Shown here piece by piece: positions 21,092 through 32,129 of a DNA stretch of 40,632 nt. The DNA is from Phycisphaerae bacterium (lineage in GTDB: Bacteria > Planctomycetota > Phycisphaerae > Phycisphaerales > SM1A02). The DNA lies in the NCBI GenBank assembly GCA_018656645.1, contig JABHZL010000040.1, positions 1 through 40,632 of the forward strand. The letters run 5' to 3'. The notes under the pieces were generated by a model. The model was not told the origin of the DNA and ran no database searches. It worked only from the letters and a program-made list of their open reading frames with translations. Position numbers and translations under genes: made by a program. Numbering within the stretch: position 1 is the stretch's first letter; each line of letters opens with the position of its first letter.

Positions 21092-21122
21092 AAAAGGTCA
21101 ATAAACCGCTATCTGACCTTTT
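21092..21122 (-). terminator. Hairpin at the end of the prepilin-like gene
   Basis: AAAAGGTCA (21092-21100) pairs with TGACCTTTT (21114-21122) over nine bases. The hairpin spans the stop codon and its 3' arm ends in TTTT on the minus strand. Together with 20982-20999 it gives two terminators in a row after this gene. Confidence 0.55.
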
Positions 21123-22125
21123 TTGTCAAATTCCCCACTCGGACGCCTCTACCCTGCAAGGTTGTTTGGTCAGGAGTACCGCCAGATTGTGGATTATCGA
21201 GTCCAAGACGAACCCATGGAGTTTCCTGACCGATGTGACCGTCAAGAAGCAAAATAAGACACGAACCATCGTTAGAACCATATCGATAATCGATTTCACC
21301 AGTTGGCTCATTCGTCATCGAAGTTGAATCGTTTAAGGAAATTGTCGCTTTTCCAAAATCATACAACCAAGCAGACTCATCGTCCGCTCCAGAAATTGTT
21401 TTGTGTGCAATTGTTTCACCCGCAATCGAATCGACTAGGTACAACGATTTTGCAGGCGCATCGAGCATGCCATACGAATAATACCGATCAACTTTTGACG
21501 GTTCTGCATTCTGCCCGTCACCCGCATCGGGGTGACCATCTGCATCACTCCTCGCATCAAAAAAATCGTTCGCGGCAAAGTATCCCTGCATTTCAATTTC
21601 TTGAGCTCCACCTCCAAACGGAGTGGGTCTTGTATCACGGTCGGTAGAGTTCCGAGAGTTTGGCATTGTTGATCTAAATGGATTATCAAACGTTCTTCTT
21701 ACACTGTAAATGTCTGCACCTGGTGCATCTGTTTCCCATCGCAAGTGTTCACGGTCTTCTAGGTCTGTTTCGTGCAGACCATACGTTTTATACATGTCAT
21801 TATCTGTCCACAAAATATCAGCCCATGAACCAATGTACCGTCCATCGTCTAAATGCTCATCGCTTCGTACACGTATTGCGGAACCTGCAGCTGCTTCATC
21901 TGTGAAATTAAATTGACTTGGAAGAACGCGGCCATTATTGCTTCCGCTCCATCCCTGCATCAATGTGTGGATTTCACGCAAACGGTTTTGTGCCTCAGCT
22001 GTTTTGGCAGCGGAGAGGGATCTTGTCACAGCAGTAATCAACAAGGCTGAAAGGATTGCTATAACAGAAATAACAACCATCAATTCAACAATCGTAAAAC
22101 CTTGTGTTTTTCTGTAATTCTGCAT
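21109..22125 (-). CDS. Prepilin-type protein with long soluble domain
   Basis: Protein of 338 residues. The short basic leader MQNYRKTQG is followed by FTIVELMVVISVIAILSALLI, the class III prepilin signal: cleavage after Gly by a prepilin peptidase, methylation of Phe, and Glu at +5. The rest is an extracytoplasmic domain with Asp-rich loops (DNDMYKTYGLHETDLEDREH; DADGHPDAGDGQN) that may bind calcium, and a closing LLLDGHIGQETPW segment like the DGHV ending of planctomycete prepilin-like proteins. The start at 22125 is chosen for its GGAGAA site. It may be a pseudopilin used by the pil/gsp platform at 4406-8922, but it is not next to it. Its partners are unknown. Confidence 0.85.
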   Translation of the reverse strand: MQNYRKTQGFTIVELMVVISVIAILSALLITAVTRSLSAAKTAEAQNRLREIHTLMQGWSGSNNGRVLPSQFNFTDEAAAGSAIRVRSDEHLDDGRYIGSWADILWTDNDMYKTYGLHETDLEDREHLRWETDAPGADIYSVRRTFDNPFRSTMPNSRNSTDRDTRPTPFGGGAQEIEMQGYFAANDFFDARSDADGHPDAGDGQNAEPSKVDRYYSYGMLDAPAKSLYLVDSIAGETIAHKTISGADDESAWLYDFGKATISLNDSTSMTNEPTGEIDYRYGSNDGSCLILLLDGHIGQETPWVRLGLDNPQSGGTPDQTTLQGRGVRVGNLTKKVR

Positions 22126-22171
22126 GTGTTCTCCAAGAACTGTACGCACTGAGACTGTTTGTGTCTACTGT

Positions 22172-23750: not shown

Positions 23751-24347
23751 TCAATGTATCAATGCAAGGACTGACCTGATTTGCTGCTGCGTATTAGCAA
23801 TGTCCCCGTCATTGATAATGATATGGTCGGCGGAAGAGCGCTTCGTGTCAAGCCCTATTTGTGTTGATTCTCTACTTCTAAGTTGTTCTTCATTCCAACC
23901 ACGATTTTTTATCACTCGCGCAAGACGTGTTTCAAACGGTGAATCTACAAATATAAGTACGTCACACTGGTGATCTAATCCCGATTCTATTAATAATGGA
24001 GCATCAATCACCAACGCAATTGTGCCTTGTGGAGCGTGTAAAAACGCTATTTCTTGCAATTCTCGCACATATGGGTGGATCAGAGACTCAAGTTTTTCCC
24101 GTTCCTTTGCGTCCTTAAAAACAATTGAAGCAACGAACGCTCGATCAACAAGTTCATTTTCGTCAAGCACTTCATCTCCCCACCATGCTACGAGTTGTTG
24201 TTGTACTTCTTCCCTTGCTAACACTATTTTTGTGTTTTCATCTGCATCTGCTACAACGCAACCGTTTTCTCGCAAAATATTTGCTACTAGACTTTTTCCG
24301 GATCCTATACCTCCGGTGATGCCGATAATTGGAAGGCGAGAGCTCAT
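23751..24347 (-). CDS. coaE: Dephospho-CoA kinase
   Basis: Enzyme of 198 residues for the last step of coenzyme A synthesis, ATP-dependent 3'-phosphorylation of dephospho-CoA. P-loop GITGGIGSGKS (9-19), the CoA-domain segment VVADADENTKIVL, the LESLIHPYV helix and VIDAPLLIESGLDHQCD with FVDSPFETRLARV are all standard. ATG 24347 overlaps the cysS stop by 4 bp (ATGA), which fixes the start and implies translational coupling; a GTG six codons upstream is rejected. Normal family length. Confidence 0.95.
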   Translation of the reverse strand: MSSRLPIIGITGGIGSGKSLVANILRENGCVVADADENTKIVLAREEVQQQLVAWWGDEVLDENELVDRAFVASIVFKDAKEREKLESLIHPYVRELQEIAFLHAPQGTIALVIDAPLLIESGLDHQCDVLIFVDSPFETRLARVIKNRGWNEEQLRSRESTQIGLDTKRSSADHIIINDGDIANTQQQIRSVLALIH

Positions 24348-25876
24348 TGCACAATTCTCGACCACGTTGTTCCCTCAGGTCCATCCTTGATTGCTACACC
24401 CATCTCGAGTAACTCGTCGCGAATTTCATCTGCACGTGCCCACTCTTTTTCATCACGAGCTGTCAATCTTGCTTCAATGAGTGCATCAACTTTTGACACA
24501 TCAAGGTCACCAGATCCGCCCAGAGTATCGAGATCAAACACACCAAGCACTTGGTCCATCTCAAGTAACGCTTTTAACTCAAACTCAAGTGTGGAACTTC
24601 CGCTTCCTTCAGGAACTGCGTCGATTGCATATGCGTTCACTGCTTCATTGAGTGCGCCAATTGCGCCAGCAACATTGAGATCATCACACAGTGCCCCTAA
24701 AAATTGCTCTTTTGCGATTACAAGTGGGCCATGTAGATGTGCTGCAACATCTTTGTGCTTTGTAAGCCAATCTTTCAATCTTCGCCAACGATCAATTTGA
24801 CGTTGCGAATCTTTTAACCCTTGCATTGTAAAGTTAGCATTTGATCTGTAGTGTGTTTTGATGAGTTCAAGTCGAACAGCTGCTGCAGTCGCTCCTTTAT
24901 CAAACAGGTCGCGAAGCGTATAAAAGTTACCCTTGCTTTTACTCATTTTGGTGCCATCGACAAGTAAAAAGCGGGTGTGAAACCAGTATCGAGAAAATGC
25001 ATCGCATCCTGTTGCACAACGTGACTGTGCTATTTCACATTCATGGTGTGGAAAAATGTTATCTTCGCCGCCACTGTGCAAATCAATTTCTGCTCCGAGC
25101 AACGTGTTTGCCATGACAGAACATTCGAGGTGCCAGCCGGGATACCCCTCGCCCCAAGGACTTGGCCATCGCATCAAATGTGTTGCGTCTGGTTTCCAAA
25201 GCATAAAGTCTGCGGGGCTACGTTTGACAGCTTGGGTTTCCATATCAACTCTGCCCCCTTCACCACTACGAAGTGTTTCAACTGTGTTACCAGAAAGTTC
25301 ACCATACGCACTGAAGGATTGAACGGAAAAATACACGACTCCATCTGAAGCAACATATGCATGATTATTTTCGATCAGGGTTTCAACCATCGCAATCATT
25401 TCTTGTATGTATTGCGTCGGCCTTGGCATCAAAGATGGATCTCTTTTTGCGTCATCTACTATTCGCATTCCAAGTGCTGCGCTATCTTCCATGAATGCAG
25501 CGGCATAAAATTCAGCGACGGCCATTGGGTCACTTGGATCAACCGACGCACCTTCTGGTAGTTCACCTGATTTTTTTGCTTCAGCAAGTCTTGTTGCTGC
25601 AACTTCCATTTTGTCCTCACCGCCACCATCAGCAACTGCGTCGTCTGTCATGTGACCAACATCTGTAATGTTCATCACTTGATTAACTTTGTATCCGAGA
25701 ACCTCTAATGTCCGTCGTAATACATCAGCATTGAGAAATGCACGAAAGTTCCCTATGTGCGCAAAGTCATATACCGTTGGCCCACAAGAATAAAACGTGA
25801 CAGCTCTTCCGTCAGGGTCTATTGGTGTAAAACCTTCTGTTCGCTTTGTCAACGTATTATGAAGTTTCAATTGCAT
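24344..25876 (-). CDS. cysS: Cysteine--tRNA ligase
   Basis: Class I synthetase of 510 residues that charges tRNA-Cys. The HIGH-type motif is in CGPTVYDFAHIGNFR near residue 30, with the first zinc-binding Cys in it. GWHLECSVMA gives a further Cys, and HSGGEDNIFPHHECEIAQ supplies the remaining zinc ligands. KMSKSKGN is in GTKMSKSKGNFYTLRDL. The C-terminal part ends with the small domain ADEIRDELLEMGVAIKDGPEGTTW. The ATG at 25876 is chosen because the family begins MxLxLHNTL; the upstream frame would cross the whole intergenic gap into the epimerase gene. An insertion around residues 70-105 (VADGGGEDKMEVAATRLAEA) is like that of other planctomycete or Chlamydia-type CysRS. Confidence 0.96.
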   Translation of the reverse strand: MQLKLHNTLTKRTEGFTPIDPDGRAVTFYSCGPTVYDFAHIGNFRAFLNADVLRRTLEVLGYKVNQVMNITDVGHMTDDAVADGGGEDKMEVAATRLAEAKKSGELPEGASVDPSDPMAVAEFYAAAFMEDSAALGMRIVDDAKRDPSLMPRPTQYIQEMIAMVETLIENNHAYVASDGVVYFSVQSFSAYGELSGNTVETLRSGEGGRVDMETQAVKRSPADFMLWKPDATHLMRWPSPWGEGYPGWHLECSVMANTLLGAEIDLHSGGEDNIFPHHECEIAQSRCATGCDAFSRYWFHTRFLLVDGTKMSKSKGNFYTLRDLFDKGATAAAVRLELIKTHYRSNANFTMQGLKDSQRQIDRWRRLKDWLTKHKDVAAHLHGPLVIAKEQFLGALCDDLNVAGAIGALNEAVNAYAIDAVPEGSGSSTLEFELKALLEMDQVLGVFDLDTLGGSGDLDVSKVDALIEARLTARDEKEWARADEIRDELLEMGVAIKDGPEGTTWSRIVQ

Positions 25877-25885
25877 AGTTTGAGC

Positions 25886-25893
25886 AGTATAAA
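25886..25893. promoter_or_regulatory. Overlapping divergent -10 boxes between cysS and the epimerase gene
   Basis: AGTATAAA reads TATACT on the minus strand (toward cysS, nine bases before its ATG) and TATAAA on the plus strand (toward the epimerase). The two genes are only 36 bp apart, so both promoters must lie here. No strong -35 is seen for either. Confidence 0.4.
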
Positions 25894-25912
25894 TGGTAGG
25901 ATAGTGAATTGT

Positions 25913-26881
25913 ATGGAAACCAAAACGTACAACAACTTTTTCCACAATCGAACTCTACTCATTACAGGTGGGGCTGGATTTATTGGTTCCACATTAGCAA
26001 ACACGCTTATTTCACTTGGTGCACACGTTCGCATTCTTGACGATTTCAGTACAGGACACAAATCTAATGTACAGCACCTCGATGCTGAGGTGTTTGAGGG
26101 GTCAATTCTCGATGAAACGATGTTGAGAAAATCAATTTCTGGGTGCGATTGTGTTTTTCATTTGGCCGCAATGGTTTCAGTTCCTGCAAGCGTTGATAAT
26201 CCAACACGGTGCTTCAATATTAATACTAAGGGAACAGAGTTTGTGTTGCATCTTGCTTCAGAAGAAGGTGTTCGAAGAGTCGTGTTCGCGGCATCCTCTG
26301 CCGCCTATGGCCCACACGCCGCATTACCGAGTAATGAAACAATGCGTCCCGATCCTGCTTCACCTTACGCTGAAAGCAAAATTGCTGGTGAAGAAGCAGT
26401 TCGATTGTGCGCGACATCCACAGAAACAGATGCTGTTGCTCTCAGGTACTTCAACATCTTTGGTCCAGGACAAGATCCACACTCACAGTACGCTGCTGTC
26501 GTTGCGGCATTTATGCAAGCACTGCTCAATAAACAAAATCCGCAGATTTATGGTGACGGTTCTCAAACGAGGGACTTCACGTTTGTTGACAATGCTGTCC
26601 ATGCAAATTTGTTGGCTGCATCAAATGACGCGTCGCTAGGTGGTGAAGTTTTCAACATTGGCACAGGCGCTTCTTACAGTTTGCTCGAAATGTTAGACGC
26701 CATGGCAAGCACGCTGAATGTCTCTCCCGTGATTGACTTTCACCCAATGCGGGATGGAGATGTACCACATTCAAGAGCAGATATTACTAAAGCAACCGGT
26801 GCGTTTGGCTACAAACCGATTGTTCCGTTCTATGAAGGAATTTCACGGCTTTTCACTGGTTTAGCTGGGTTGCCTACATAA
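25913..26881 (+). CDS. NAD-dependent nucleotide-sugar 4-epimerase (extended SDR)
   Basis: Enzyme of 322 residues. The NAD-binding motif GGAGFIG (19-25), AASSAAYG (126-133) and the catalytic YAESK pair Tyr152/Lys156 mark an extended SDR. RYFNIFGPGQDPHSQYAAVV and IYGDGSQTRDFTFVDNAVHANL match the WbpP/GalE branch, which interconverts UDP-GlcNAc and UDP-GalNAc or UDP-Glc and UDP-Gal. Which sugar is used cannot be decided by eye, and a dehydratase is less likely. ATG 25913 is chosen; AGGA lies 11 bases upstream, and an in-frame GTG at 25904 is an alternative. It is on the opposite strand from the acyltransferase/glycosyltransferase genes but converges with them (52-bp overlap), consistent with one surface-glycan locus. 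Confidence 0.88.
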   Translation: METKTYNNFFHNRTLLITGGAGFIGSTLANTLISLGAHVRILDDFSTGHKSNVQHLDAEVFEGSILDETMLRKSISGCDCVFHLAAMVSVPASVDNPTRCFNINTKGTEFVLHLASEEGVRRVVFAASSAAYGPHAALPSNETMRPDPASPYAESKIAGEEAVRLCATSTETDAVALRYFNIFGPGQDPHSQYAAVVAAFMQALLNKQNPQIYGDGSQTRDFTFVDNAVHANLLAASNDASLGGEVFNIGTGASYSLLEMLDAMASTLNVSPVIDFHPMRDGDVPHSRADITKATGAFGYKPIVPFYEGISRLFTGLAGLPT

Positions 26882-27372
26882 ATAGTCCATGCGTCTAACG
26901 ATTTCATTGCAACTGCTCGGGCGCCTAAAATTGCACCTTCACCAATAACTACATTTGGGCCAACAAATGCATCTGCAGCGACCCACACATCGTTATTCAA
27001 TGTGATTGGTGGACGTAAAAGCGGAAGTTCTTGTTTTGTGTAATCGTGTGACCCAGCACAAAGATGTGCGTGCTGTGAAACAGAAACACGCTCGCCAATT
27101 GTCATCGTTCCTAAACAATACGCAATCACCTCATCTCCTAAGCAACTGTTGCGACCCATTGATAGATTCCATGGGCACGTAACACGTACAGATCTTCGAA
27201 TGATGCACGAGCTGTGCACCTTAGCCCCAAATACATTCAATAGAAATATTCTCCATCGATTGCAGGTGTGAAATGAAAAGCGAAAAACCGTAGCTTGTAC
27301 AACAGCCCATAGAAGGCGTCCAGTTTTTTCCTTCGTAGAGTATGGGCTGACATGTCTATTTTCAGGCGGCAT
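26830..27372 (-). CDS. WcaF-like left-handed beta-helix acyltransferase
   Basis: Protein of 180 residues with hexapeptide repeats, the fold of WcaF/NodL-type O-acetyltransferases. CPWNLSMGRNSCLGDEVIAY, MTIGERVSVSQHAHLCAGSHD with the expected catalytic His109, then PPITLNNDVWVAADAFVGPN and GEGAILGARAV are typical, and IYVGNPAKPV ends the family domain. It would transfer acetyl or another acyl group from acyl-CoA to a sugar in the cytoplasm. It starts 11 bases before the end of the fusion gene, so it is translationally linked to it. Its final 52 bases overlap the 3' end of the epimerase on the other strand. Confidence 0.85.
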   Translation of the reverse strand: MPPENRHVSPYSTKEKTGRLLWAVVQATVFRFSFHTCNRWRIFLLNVFGAKVHSSCIIRRSVRVTCPWNLSMGRNSCLGDEVIAYCLGTMTIGERVSVSQHAHLCAGSHDYTKQELPLLRPPITLNNDVWVAADAFVGPNVVIGEGAILGARAVAMKSLDAWTIYVGNPAKPVKSREIPS

Positions 27373-28732
27373 CTTTTTTTGCTTCTTGTGCTTCTTCTTG
27401 TAATATTTCTGCCGTTTTCAGTGAAATCAATAATTCTCGTGATGAAATAAACATACAGAATTTAAAACCTGTGCGTCCGTCTAGGAAACCAAATTGGAGG
27501 AAATACATCCATAAGAATCTAAACAACCAGCGAGCGGGAAGCCTTGGATAAATATGTCGTTTGATCCAACGACGGCGCTGGATGGTTGATCCAAAAAGTG
27601 TCATACCCACAGGGTCATCGTTGGACCTACTTTCTCGTAAAATCTCCTTGGCTTCAAGCATGCAGTACTGGTTATGTTTTTGAATGTAGATATCTAAACC
27701 ACGACGATCAAAGTGTTCCATATTCCCACTGAGATATCCTTGTTGACCCTCAACCACCATGTGCTCATGCACCTCACGCTCTTCATATCGAGCAGCGCCA
27801 CGTTTAAAGAATCGCACGTTCCAACTTGGGTAATAACCGCAATGTCGAATACGCTTGCCGAGGAAAATAAAATACCTGTTGATGTTGTAGGCGGAAATTG
27901 GGTTATGTTCAGCGGGCTCGGCAGCAATTTTTAACATTTCATCACGAAGGTCTGGAAGAATAACTTCATCTGCATCAAGAATAAAAACCCAATCGGATTC
28001 GATTGGTAAATTATCAAGTGCCCAGTTCTTTTGTTTTGCATAGCCAAGCCACGGTTGCACTATCACTTCTGCGCCAAACTCTTTTGCAATTTCACGAGTT
28101 TTATCTGTTGATTCTGAATCGACTACCCAAATTTTATCCGCCCATTTGTAAATACTCTTCAGTGTATAGGGCAAATTAATTTCTTCGTTTTTAACTGGAA
28201 TAACAATTTCAATGTTGGAATTTTTTGCTTGTCCCCAAAGTATTCGTTCACCGCGTGAAACTGCTGGCTCACCCGTACAAATTGACCACTTTGGAAGATG
28301 CCCATCAACCATACCCCTCGCACCAACAACAACACCTTGTTCAATGTGTGATCCGGGCATCACAATAATATCTGTTGCTATCCAACAATCATCTTCGATA
28401 TTGATCGATCCTGTTCGATCGGTTTTACCTTTTGTTGCTGGGTCCCCCGCCGTTGTAATCAACATTGCGTGCTGGCTCACAACACATCGCTTACCAACGC
28501 GAATTGGCTGATCAGCATTTATGCGAACATTATCGCCAAACAGGCTTAGATCATCTGCTGTTACATTCCATGGCTTATCAATTGAAACAGTTCGCCGCAC
28601 TCTTACTGCTCGACCGCATCGCATTCCAAAACATCGAAGCAATAACGCACGATATCGGTAAGAGTTGTGCATTGAACAGCGGACTAGTGGTTGCCCGATG
28701 GTTTTCCAAAGTGCCCGGCGAAACGAACTCAT
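27362..28732 (-). CDS. Fusion of a degenerate WcaF-like domain and a family 2 glycosyltransferase
   Basis: Protein of 456 residues. Residues 1-165 are a left-handed beta-helix acyltransferase like its two neighbours, but at the active-site turn they read LITTAGD where the neighbours read LCAGSHD or LCAGTHD, so Gly96 stands where the catalytic His should be. Residues 173-456 are a GT-A glycosyltransferase of the WaaE/KdtX type: IEIVIPVKNEEINLPYTLKS, VVDSESTDKTREIAKEFGA, WLGYAKQKNWAL, the metal-binding DADE near 253 and VRFFKRGAARYEEREVHEH. That group adds a glucose or similar sugar to lipopolysaccharide core or capsule. The ATG overlaps the upstream acyltransferase stop by 4 bp. The protein is cytoplasmic or membrane-associated. 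The sugar donor and acceptor are unknown. Confidence 0.88.
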   Translation of the reverse strand: MSSFRRALWKTIGQPLVRCSMHNSYRYRALLLRCFGMRCGRAVRVRRTVSIDKPWNVTADDLSLFGDNVRINADQPIRVGKRCVVSQHAMLITTAGDPATKGKTDRTGSINIEDDCWIATDIIVMPGSHIEQGVVVGARGMVDGHLPKWSICTGEPAVSRGERILWGQAKNSNIEIVIPVKNEEINLPYTLKSIYKWADKIWVVDSESTDKTREIAKEFGAEVIVQPWLGYAKQKNWALDNLPIESDWVFILDADEVILPDLRDEMLKIAAEPAEHNPISAYNINRYFIFLGKRIRHCGYYPSWNVRFFKRGAARYEEREVHEHMVVEGQQGYLSGNMEHFDRRGLDIYIQKHNQYCMLEAKEILRESRSNDDPVGMTLFGSTIQRRRWIKRHIYPRLPARWLFRFLWMYFLQFGFLDGRTGFKFCMFISSRELLISLKTAEILQEEAQEAKKDAA

Positions 28733-29310
28733 GCGACTGCTCTTGCAGGATTACCAGACAACTCTGCATTGTCTTCAACACTTTTAAAAACACTTGTGCG
28801 AGGCCAAATCGTACAATTTGAACCCACTTGTACGTTTGGTGCAATGTAAGAATCAACACCGATAAACGTACCATTTCCAATGACAATTGGAGGGCGTAAT
28901 AGCGGAAAGGTTGTGTCCTTCATGTCGTGCGTTCCAGCGCAGAGATGCGCCCGAGTATCTATTCGAACATCGTCGCCAATAGTAATAGGTCCAAGAGAGT
29001 ACAGGATGACATCTTCTGCGAAACAACAGTTATTGCCGATGTTGAGATTCCAAGGAATAATGATGTCAACGGATCTGGCAAATTTGCACTTAGACCCGAT
29101 TTTCGCACCAAACAATCGAAGCAGTAATGATCGGAATGGAGGGAATATCACCCAAACAATTCTGGCGAGGGTTGACCAGATAATTCGAATTAAAAGTTCT
29201 ATTGGGGACCAAACCGTTCGGCGGGTTGGAGGCGCGGCCTCCATTGCCTTTGATTGATCCGCACCACGCGAACTTGATCCATGTATTTGTTGTCCTGTAT
29301 TTTTACTCAT
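28729..29310 (-). CDS. WcaF-like left-handed beta-helix acyltransferase
   Basis: Protein of 193 residues, paralogous to the two genes that follow it. A polar leader of about 30 residues precedes a hydrophobic segment (LLIRIIWSTLARIVWVIFPP) and the hexapeptide domain: IPWNLNIGNNCCFAEDVILY, ITIGDDVRIDTRAHLCAGTHD with His128 as expected catalytic base, FPLLRPPIVIGNGTFIGVDS and ELSGNPARAV at the end. It probably acetylates a nucleotide sugar or lipid-linked glycan. First gene of a three-gene overlapping cluster. The 267-bp stretch upstream contains the tandem palindromes at 29477-29561. Confidence 0.85.
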   Translation of the reverse strand: MSKNTGQQIHGSSSRGADQSKAMEAAPPTRRTVWSPIELLIRIIWSTLARIVWVIFPPFRSLLLRLFGAKIGSKCKFARSVDIIIPWNLNIGNNCCFAEDVILYSLGPITIGDDVRIDTRAHLCAGTHDMKDTTFPLLRPPIVIGNGTFIGVDSYIAPNVQVGSNCTIWPRTSVFKSVEDNAELSGNPARAVA

Positions 29311-29577: not shown

Positions 29578-30501
29578 TTAATCCCAAATTGGGACGGTTT
29601 CGTTTTCAGTAAATGTAGTTGTATCGTTGGATGTCACGATAATCCAATTGTCACCCGAAGCCATTGCATTATCTGGATCTACATCACCAAATTCTGCTGA
29701 AAACAGAATGTCCGGTCTAAGCGGAGAACCATCGAGTGGGGAATATGTAATATCAGTGTTGATATATGAAGGAAGCATCTTCGCAGACCCGTCACCTGTC
29801 ACCCCAGCCCCTTCCCACTGTTCGTGCGGTCCATGAAAACCAAATGTATATGTTTTTCTAATGCCATCTTGAAATTGATCAACGACTGTCAATTCTGTTG
29901 GAGAAACCACAAGTTCTGGTCCTCGGTTACAAATAATGACGTCGGTGGCACCAGAGCCAGAGTGCCATTTCAAGCGGTTACGTTGTCCAACAAGCGCCTG
30001 GTGTGCATATGAATTATGCGCAACACTTTGTGTAAAATCGGCATTGAAATCTGGATCCCAGTGATAAAGTGAACCATCATAAATATCGAAGTTATATGGA
30101 AAATCACTATCTGTACCATTGATTCCGTCTCCACCAGAAATCACACGAATGTTTGGGTTGGTTTCAACTGGACTGAAAGTATTAGAAAAATCAAAAAACC
30201 TTTGCATCACCATCCATGACATCAACGCACTTGTTGTATTGATAGATGCATCTGGATTTTTCTCATCAACAATCTCACTCGGCAGTGGAAATTTTCCGTC
30301 ATTTCCTGTCGAATAAAGCACCATCGATTGATAAATTCCACGTTGCTGGGTCAAATCTTTCTTTGACCGAGCGGCACGAAACGCTGATGAAACCGTTGGA
30401 ATCAGAATACTCGCAAGAATAATAAGGATTCCTACTACCACCATCAACTCAATAAGAGTAAAACCAGATCGCAGCCGCTTGTTGCTTATACATGTTTGCA
30501 T
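29578..30501 (-). CDS. Prepilin-type protein with long soluble domain
   Basis: Protein of 307 residues. The leader MQTCISNKRLRSG precedes FTLIELMVVVGILIILASILI, a class III prepilin signal with Glu at +5 after the predicted Gly/Phe cleavage. The exported part has a helix (AARSKKDLTQQRGIYQSMVLY), then loops rich in Asp, Asn and Gly (SGGDGINGTDSDFPYN), and ends TFTENETVPIWD. It differs from the 338-residue protein at 21109-22125 outside the signal, so these are separate families of minor pilin or prepilin-like proteins. The start at 30501 is taken for the short leader, although no good ribosome-binding site is seen. It lies 59 bp after murJ on the same strand and may be read with it. Confidence 0.82.
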   Translation of the reverse strand: MQTCISNKRLRSGFTLIELMVVVGILIILASILIPTVSSAFRAARSKKDLTQQRGIYQSMVLYSTGNDGKFPLPSEIVDEKNPDASINTTSALMSWMVMQRFFDFSNTFSPVETNPNIRVISGGDGINGTDSDFPYNFDIYDGSLYHWDPDFNADFTQSVAHNSYAHQALVGQRNRLKWHSGSGATDVIICNRGPELVVSPTELTVVDQFQDGIRKTYTFGFHGPHEQWEGAGVTGDGSAKMLPSYINTDITYSPLDGSPLRPDILFSAEFGDVDPDNAMASGDNWIIVTSNDTTTFTENETVPIWD

Positions 30502-30560
30502 ATGTTTAGGATACGCACTTCTAGGGTCTTTTGAACGACAAAAATTCAATTTTTGCAAAT

Positions 30561-32129
30561 CTATCCTCGCCCACCCAAAATCCATTTGCGTTCTTCCATC
30601 TTTAAGAGATGAGCACATATTCCAAAAATCGCAATACCCACACCAACACACACCGCTAAAACGCGTAATGACTGCAACCAAGAGAAGTTAGAATCTAGTT
30701 GAAAGAATTCGAGTGCAAATATAACACCAACTGACATCACTAATGAGGCGATCAAAGTTTTAATCCACGATGCCACAACAGTTTTATCTGCGGGAACATC
30801 AACATGTTTTCGAATGAGTCGCATCAGAATACCAACTTGTACCACTGCGCAAAACGCTGTTGACCACGCTAATCCCGCTGTGCCTAGCGGCGTCCAAATT
30901 AAAATTACATTCAACGTAACATTGAGAGCAATCATTCTTACTGCTATTTTCACAGGGGTTTTCATGTCATCAACTGCATAAAATGCACGCGTTAGAACTT
31001 GGGTCATTGAGTATGCCCAAATTGCAGTGCTGTACCCAAGCAAGATAAAACCAACCTCAGCAGTGTCGCTGCTTGTAAAAAGGCCGCCTTGAAACACTAC
31101 ACCCGAAAGTAAATCTCGGATGATCATCAACCCAGCGCTTGCCGGCAAACCAATAAATACAACCAATCTTAATCCTCGCCGAACCGTACTGCCAAACGCA
31201 TCACGTGTTGATGCTTGTGATGCAAGCAACGGAAAAATAGCAGTACCCACTGCAATACCAAATACACCAAGTGGGAATTGAAACAAGCGCGACGCAAAGT
31301 TAAGTGAAGCGTTTGCGCCTTCATCAAGAGGATAAGTGATACCAAATATAGTTGAGCCAACAATAACGGGGTAACTTGCAATTAAACCGTCAAGGAGCGT
31401 GTTAAGCTGCATGGTTCCAAGCCCAATGATGGTTGGAATCAACTTCCTAGTCATTACACCTAGATCTTCTGTTCCACACGTTGTTTTTCGTGTCCACCAG
31501 TCAACTCGGCGAAGCGCGTGCAATGACCATGCAACCTGTAATAGTCCTGCAATGACAACTGCAACACCAACTGTCATCATGTGCTTTTCAACTGAAGAAA
31601 AAACGTCTGTAAACAAAAGTGTTGCTGCAATCATGCAAGCGTTCAGAAGAATTGGAGCTGCTGCGGTTGGGCCAAACCTTCCGTGCGTTTGCAAAATGCC
31701 ACCAAGGACTGCAACTACACAAACAAGCGGCATATAGGGCAACATGGTCATCATCAACCCAAAGGTTCCATCAGGCTGAGGTGCCCAAGTCATGAGCCCC
31801 CACAACAATAATTCGCCTAGGACTACAACCAATCCGAGATAGATAATTAGTTTTGCAATTGTGAGTGAAGCAAGCGCTTTTGCCCGTTTGGGATCTTCTT
31901 GCAATAATTTGGAATACGCTGGAAGAAATGCTGCAGAAAGTGCACCTTCACCAAAAAGTCTTCTGGCTAAATTTGGTATTAAAAATGCAAAGAAAAAAGC
32001 AGAAGAAATACCGCCCGCACCAAAAGTTCGACTGATCGCGGCATCACGACCAAGACCTGCGATGCGGCTCAGTAATGTAATCGACCAAACCGTACGAGTA
32101 TTCTTTTCAAGACTGTCTTTGTGTGGCAC
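30561..32129 (-). CDS. murJ: Lipid II flippase MurJ
   Basis: Polytopic membrane protein of 522 residues in the MOP superfamily, with about 14 transmembrane helices. The N-terminus is diagnostic: SRIAGLGRDAAISRTFGAG, AFFFAFLIPNLARRLFGEGA and LSAAFLPAYSK. Later PLDEGANASLNFASRLFQFPLG contributes the cavity and AVDDMKTPVKIAV the second half. It flips lipid II across the inner membrane for peptidoglycan synthesis, or exports a related polyprenyl-linked precursor. The start is GTG at 32129, five bases after the VanZ-like stop; no ATG lies in the conserved N-terminal region. Confidence 0.95.
   Translation of the reverse strand: MPHKDSLEKNTRTVWSITLLSRIAGLGRDAAISRTFGAGGISSAFFFAFLIPNLARRLFGEGALSAAFLPAYSKLLQEDPKRAKALASLTIAKLIIYLGLVVVLGELLLWGLMTWAPQPDGTFGLMMTMLPYMPLVCVVAVLGGILQTHGRFGPTAAAPILLNACMIAATLLFTDVFSSVEKHMMTVGVAVVIAGLLQVAWSLHALRRVDWWTRKTTCGTEDLGVMTRKLIPTIIGLGTMQLNTLLDGLIASYPVIVGSTIFGITYPLDEGANASLNFASRLFQFPLGVFGIAVGTAIFPLLASQASTRDAFGSTVRRGLRLVVFIGLPASAGLMIIRDLLSGVVFQGGLFTSSDTAEVGFILLGYSTAIWAYSMTQVLTRAFYAVDDMKTPVKIAVRMIALNVTLNVILIWTPLGTAGLAWSTAFCAVVQVGILMRLIRKHVDVPADKTVVASWIKTLIASLVMSVGVIFALEFFQLDSNFSWLQSLRVLAVCVGVGIAIFGICAHLLKMEERKWILGGRG

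Follow-up and report, generated by a model that had tools for sequence, protein, structure and literature searches.

Genes A and B, adjacent paralogs in a planctomycete genome, probably encode obligate partners in a heteromeric, and probably trimeric, acetyltransferase, whose live sites would pair an intact His face on one subunit with an intact Trp face on another; the assembly itself is one that we infer, and our confidence in this reading is moderate. Accordingly, A, B, and usually a third paralog, C, would be subunits of one left-handed beta-helix (LbH) acetyltransferase, most likely a trimer, which would O-acetylate a sugar during exopolysaccharide assembly, with acetyl-CoA as the presumed donor and the sugar as the presumed acceptor. 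The genes were studied in a 40,632-nucleotide stretch of one contig (hereafter the window, meaning the whole stretch of DNA analyzed) from a Phycisphaerae bacterium genome of 2.0 Mb in 137 contigs.

Three WcaF-like genes and their surroundings

The features of the locus are as follows.
28729..29310, minus strand: gene A, WcaF-like LbH protein (193 aa)
28226..28732, minus strand: gene B, LbH domain (N-terminal, aa 1-169)
27362..28225, minus strand: gene B, GT2 domain (C-terminal, aa 170-456), with an intact DADE motif and a low-confidence linker at ~aa 166-168
27362..28732, minus strand: gene B, whole ORF (LbH + GT2)
26830..27372, minus strand: gene C, WcaF-like LbH protein (180 aa)
25757..26881, plus strand: NAD-dependent sugar epimerase/dehydratase ORF (PF01370, 193 bits), given for context only

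The original prediction of three overlapping WcaF-like genes is borne out by the ORFs in the window, which overlap by 4 bp (A/B) and 11 bp (B/C), and by matches of A, B, and C to the NCBIfam WcaF-family model NF007797 (E values of 3e-38, 5e-40, and 9e-55), all of which score below the curated cut-off of 192 bits (131, 137, and 185 bits, C being close). The hexapeptide model PF00132 is above cut-off in A and C and below it in B. The predicted fusion of the middle gene to a glycosyltransferase was likewise confirmed, with a GT2 domain (PF00535) scoring 64.1 bits against a gathering cut-off of 23.3 and a DxD-type DADE motif in the sequence. AlphaFold2 models and matches to maltose and galactoside acetyltransferases assign A and B to the LbH fold with hexapeptide repeats; these models are single chains and say nothing on relative domain placement or oligomers. 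A is modeled as an LbH protein (pLDDT 83; VIA Z of ~21 to maltose and galactoside acetyltransferases) and B with complete LbH and GT2 domains (pLDDT 87.5, pTM 0.60, weak linker at 166-168), the latter domain having Foldseek matches to SunS and WrtF. Pairwise identities of 26% (A-B), 31% (B-C), and 40% (A-C), together with the phylogeny, indicate that the three genes are ancient paralogs; a recent tandem duplication was accordingly rejected.

The epimerase ORF, whose true start probably lies near 25913 judging from the reading frame, is convergent with gene C, their 3' ends overlapping by ~52 bp, and is a syntenic, convergent neighbor of the cassette in several congeners. It had been suggested to supply the nucleotide sugar, but nothing links it specifically to this reaction. 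As cysS lies close to the cassette both in the window (24344-25945) and in another genus (L062:8014-9558), the position of the locus looks ancestral. In the window, the region is flanked by proteins with prepilin-type N-terminal methylation motifs (GFTLIELMVV and GFTIVELMVV, at 29578-30681 and 21109-22149), the former of which had no NCBIfam match. Genes near the cassette in two relatives favor a role in exopolysaccharide assembly: L062 combines the cassette with GT4 transferases, a methyltransferase, and an XrtA-system polysaccharide deacetylase (TIGR03006, above cut-off), and L076 has sulfotransferase-like and formyltransferase-like genes beside it.

Reciprocal loss of active-site faces in A and B

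The His turn reads LCAGTHD in A, LCAGSHD in C, and LITTAGD in B, and alignment upheld the predicted replacement of the catalytic His in B by Gly96 (codon 28447-28445), with the turns of A and C intact. In A, His128 (codon 28929-28927) is kept and aligns with the His of Escherichia coli maltose acetyltransferase, while the position falling on the Trp of that enzyme is Phe149 (28866-28864), and the Gly-Ala of the CoA groove is replaced by Trp169-Pro170. B keeps Trp117 (28384-28382), Ser86-Gln87, Gly137-Ala138-Arg139, Trp149, and Arg163, and C has both His109 (27048-27046) and Trp130 (26985-26983). His22 of B was considered as a substitute for the lost His and set aside; it is conserved, but C has a similar N-terminal His in addition to its catalytic His, so that His22 is more likely structural.

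Comparison of conserved columns in 29 A, 29 B, and 23 C sequences gave two sets. The first comprises Tyr, Cys, the catalytic His, and Leu, which never vary in A and C but have been lost from B. The second comprises Ser-Gln, Trp, Gly-Ala, and a C-terminal Arg, which show little or no variation in B and C but have been lost from A, the Ala of the Gly-Ala pair being mostly Pro there. We take the Gly-Ala columns to be G159-A160 of galactoside acetyltransferase; columns beyond His and Trp were provisionally assigned to faces by co-segregation and galactoside-acetyltransferase contacts. In LbH enzymes using acetyl-CoA, each catalytic His lies opposite a conserved Trp donated by the adjacent subunit, as described with the NeuO structure (PMC3046976). 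Because these two residues come from adjacent subunits, the column pattern means that A kept one half of an interfacial site and B the other.

Across the 37 loci with full-length B, A has the His in 38/38 copies (the 38th being an extra A from L119) and the Trp in 0/38, B has the His in 3/37 and the Trp in 37/37, and all 35 C proteins have both. Nine further A-clade loci were looked at after the pattern had been seen; eight agree in both A and B, and in the ninth (L119), B has the His and is cut by the contig end before the Trp. Pooled, the His is present in 52/52 A and 5/51 B copies, and the Trp in 4/52 A and 51/51 B copies. The loci share ancestry, so these counts are not independent events, and the stronger point is the contrast between lost positions, which vary freely (the His column in B and the Trp column in A have each changed residue at least eight times), and kept positions, which are invariant. 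Among 20 other WcaF-like matches taken as a control, 13 proteins were canonical and 7 were A-like (with His, without Trp). Flanks were then read, after the pattern had been seen, for these and 13 more matches: all 14 further A-like loci have an adjacent B-like paralog (His in 2/14, Trp in 14/14), and the six loci lacking an A-like gene all lack a B-like gene as well, their 10 WcaF-like proteins keeping both residues.

The A-B pair, usually followed by C, was found in ~50 Phycisphaerales genomes, the order A-B then C, or A-B-GT2 then C, recurring in two or more families of Phycisphaerales; the relatives that carry names are Phycisphaerales MAGs, several with isolate names that indicate a marine source. 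A high-stringency A-profile search, which could miss more diverged A-like genes, detected no A outside Phycisphaerales in the sampled genomes. In a joint tree, all A form one clade and all B another (99 for both), and the two genes are adjacent on the same strand in every locus, which points to a single old pair that has been co-inherited and remains adjacent. Gene B is under purifying selection, with a dN/dS of 0.08-0.10 (~0.09), compared with 0.03-0.10 for A and 0.08-0.12 for C, and its LbH domain is open in all loci read. The first set of loci was searched for an ORF joining two LbH paralogs, and none was found. At two other loci (L047:8009-9117 and L048:10544-11637), two canonical WcaF-like genes lie in tandem after a GT2 gene, without A or B.

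It has been shown that QdtC works without a protein base (PMC2943079) and that the H135A variant of ApmA is still active (PMC7885111). B could accordingly be a working base-free sugar N-acetyltransferase forming its own homotrimer, the amine attacking acetyl-CoA directly, with A using a different acyl donor. We consider this unlikely, although B keeps the Trp/CoA face, its best PDB sequence match among LbH proteins is QdtC, and the formyltransferase-like gene in L076 hints at amino sugars. QdtC and ApmA resemble B as LbH acetyltransferases tolerating His loss, but both are single-gene homotrimers acting on amines. Activity could survive either loss by itself, given that among LbH N-acyltransferases there are some without the Trp and some for which the His is dispensable; nonetheless, a base-free B leaves unexplained both the loss of the opposite face in A and the constant co-occurrence of A and B. 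Moreover, variation or deletion affects the entire His face of B (Tyr, Cys, Leu, and loop), and Gly or Arg usually occupies the position of the CoA-phosphate Lys. The original prediction also had active acyltransferases beside B, which does not fit A, since A has lost the Trp-bearing half and cannot simply be counted as intact. The reciprocal loss in A points to a composite A/B(/C) enzyme and away from a dead scaffold flanked by independent ones.

Gene C, a possible order of subunits, and related systems

Each site of an LbH trimer lies between two subunits, the catalytic His face coming from one and the Trp/CoA face from the next. A would supply the His face only, B the Trp face only, and C both; in a ring of His(A)-Trp(C), His(C)-Trp(B), and a dead B-A pair, every conserved residue would be used and both lost faces would meet at one dead interface, the stoichiometry and ring order being what we infer from this fit. 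We tentatively propose, as a possibility short of an even chance, such a 1:1:1 A-C-B LbH heterotrimer, with two composite sites, one dead interface at which both half-sites have decayed, and one glycosyltransferase arm on one subunit, its order legible from the lost half-sites. A simpler alternative would be an A-B enzyme without C.

In the first set, C lies alongside A-B at 35 of 37 loci, the exceptions being L036, in which the contig is cut inside C, and L133, in which no C is adjacent; C is also missing beside A-B in L154, L155, L161, L163, L164, L167, and L168. A single origin for all C genes found no support (AU p = 0.045), and C does not form one clade in these loci. For this reason, and because it is missing beside several A-B pairs, C may instead be a separate homotrimer. 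On the other hand, the four A copies that keep the Trp fall in one clade, whose fifth member has Phe, and all four are without a neighboring C, which would fit C having taken over the Trp role for A; this is suggestive and amounts to about one evolutionary event. The A-like genes with Trp in L161, L163, L164, and L167 have altered Ser-Gln and Gly-Ala positions, and in their B-like partners, which have no C nearby, the His is replaced or deleted. These four loci are possible intermediates in the division of the active site.

To our knowledge, LbH acetyltransferases have been described as homotrimers, and no described example of a bacterial LbH heterotrimer or a WcaF-GT fusion was found in the open-licence literature. 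A, B, and C are most similar to the WcaF/HpsU LbH O-acetyltransferases (NF007797, TIGR04008, and NF038307) in domain, length, exopolysaccharide setting, and, for A and C, the LCAGTHD-type turn, but fall below the family cut-off, with A lacking the Trp face, B lacking the His, three paralogs in one operon, and a GT2 domain fused to B. The polysialic acid O-acetyltransferases NeuO and OatWY, from which the adjacent-subunit rule for His and Trp is drawn, are also LbH trimers that O-acetylate a polysaccharide (PMC3046976), but are homotrimers with both residues in each subunit. In plant mitochondrial complex I, the gamma-carbonic anhydrases CA1/CA2/CAL2 form an LbH heterotrimer with intersubunit sites, in which one paralog lacks active-site residues and only some interfaces work (PMC7447434). 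The likeness is one of architecture only, as that is a different enzyme in a eukaryotic respiratory complex, and hetero-assembly, proven there, is our interpretation here. Similarly, impaired and dead paralogs of trypanosomatid deoxyhypusine synthase are fully active only as a complex (PMC3663545), in an unrelated fold and reaction. If the A-B partnership is real, it would constitute a clear bacterial case of complementary degeneration, from homomer to obligate heteromer, with many natural variants. It would also be a warning for annotation: a check of the His alone calls B dead and A intact, while each may supply a half-site.

Fusion of B to GT2

Five MAGs of the genus encode B and GT2 as one fused protein, and in others the two are adjacent, separate genes. 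Six split copies from the genus were inspected; in these, the stop codon of B overlaps or abuts the start of GT2, which is in another frame. The fusion thus arose by a frame change at this junction, and it may have arisen twice, since linkers differ between the two fused groups. Within the genus, Gly occupies the His column of every B copy, fused and split alike (11/11); outside the genus, that column holds Arg, Leu, Glu, or Asp, and His in a few. The His is absent from 5/5 fusions and kept in 5/51 B copies overall, such that its predicted loss from the fused paralog is real and general among B copies, and it is never lost in A or C. Loss of the His is older than fusion to GT2. A link between inactivation and fusion was not supported, and the fusion was rejected as the driver of His loss because split B genes also lack the His. 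The five fused MAGs, the fixation of Gly in the genus, and purifying selection show that neither Gly96 nor the fusion is due to chance or assembly error.

The general loss of the His, in a domain kept under purifying selection, makes a structural or partner role of B in an LbH trimer likely. This part of the scaffold originally envisaged stands; three glycosyltransferase domains on a homotrimer are not supported, as the favored 1:1:1 model gives one per trimer. It is improbable, in our view, that B is solely a non-catalytic scaffold or lectin-like module that tethers GT2 or binds glycan, with A and C as independent homotrimeric enzymes, a reading that comes near to the original one. The loss of the His from a retained fold under purifying selection would suit such a module, as would fusion to GT2 in five genomes and the overlapping or abutting junction in six split congeners. 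However, a pure scaffold would have no use for the Trp/CoA face, which never varies in B (37/37 and 14/14), an A homotrimer would have no complete site after losing its Trp face, and in several lineages no GT2 adjoins B. That B is a decaying tandem-duplication remnant, functionless except for its linkage to GT2, is very improbable: its His-face columns are unconstrained, but decay was rejected on dN/dS, and B is kept in ~50 genomes with an invariant Trp face and an open LbH domain.

Under the favored reading of B as a partner of A, its fusion to, or position beside, GT2 in many relatives would place acetylation next to glycosyl transfer. The fusion and the overlapping genes suggest that glycosylation and acetylation are physically coupled when planctomycetes assemble exopolysaccharide. 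Three genomes of the same genus (G002, G008, and G009) gave no detectable A-B-C cassette, so that the locus may be accessory in the genus, or may be missing from these assemblies. Another genome of the genus, G001, carries two A-B-GT-C cassettes (L035:8591-11045 and L036:1-2120), one fused and one split.
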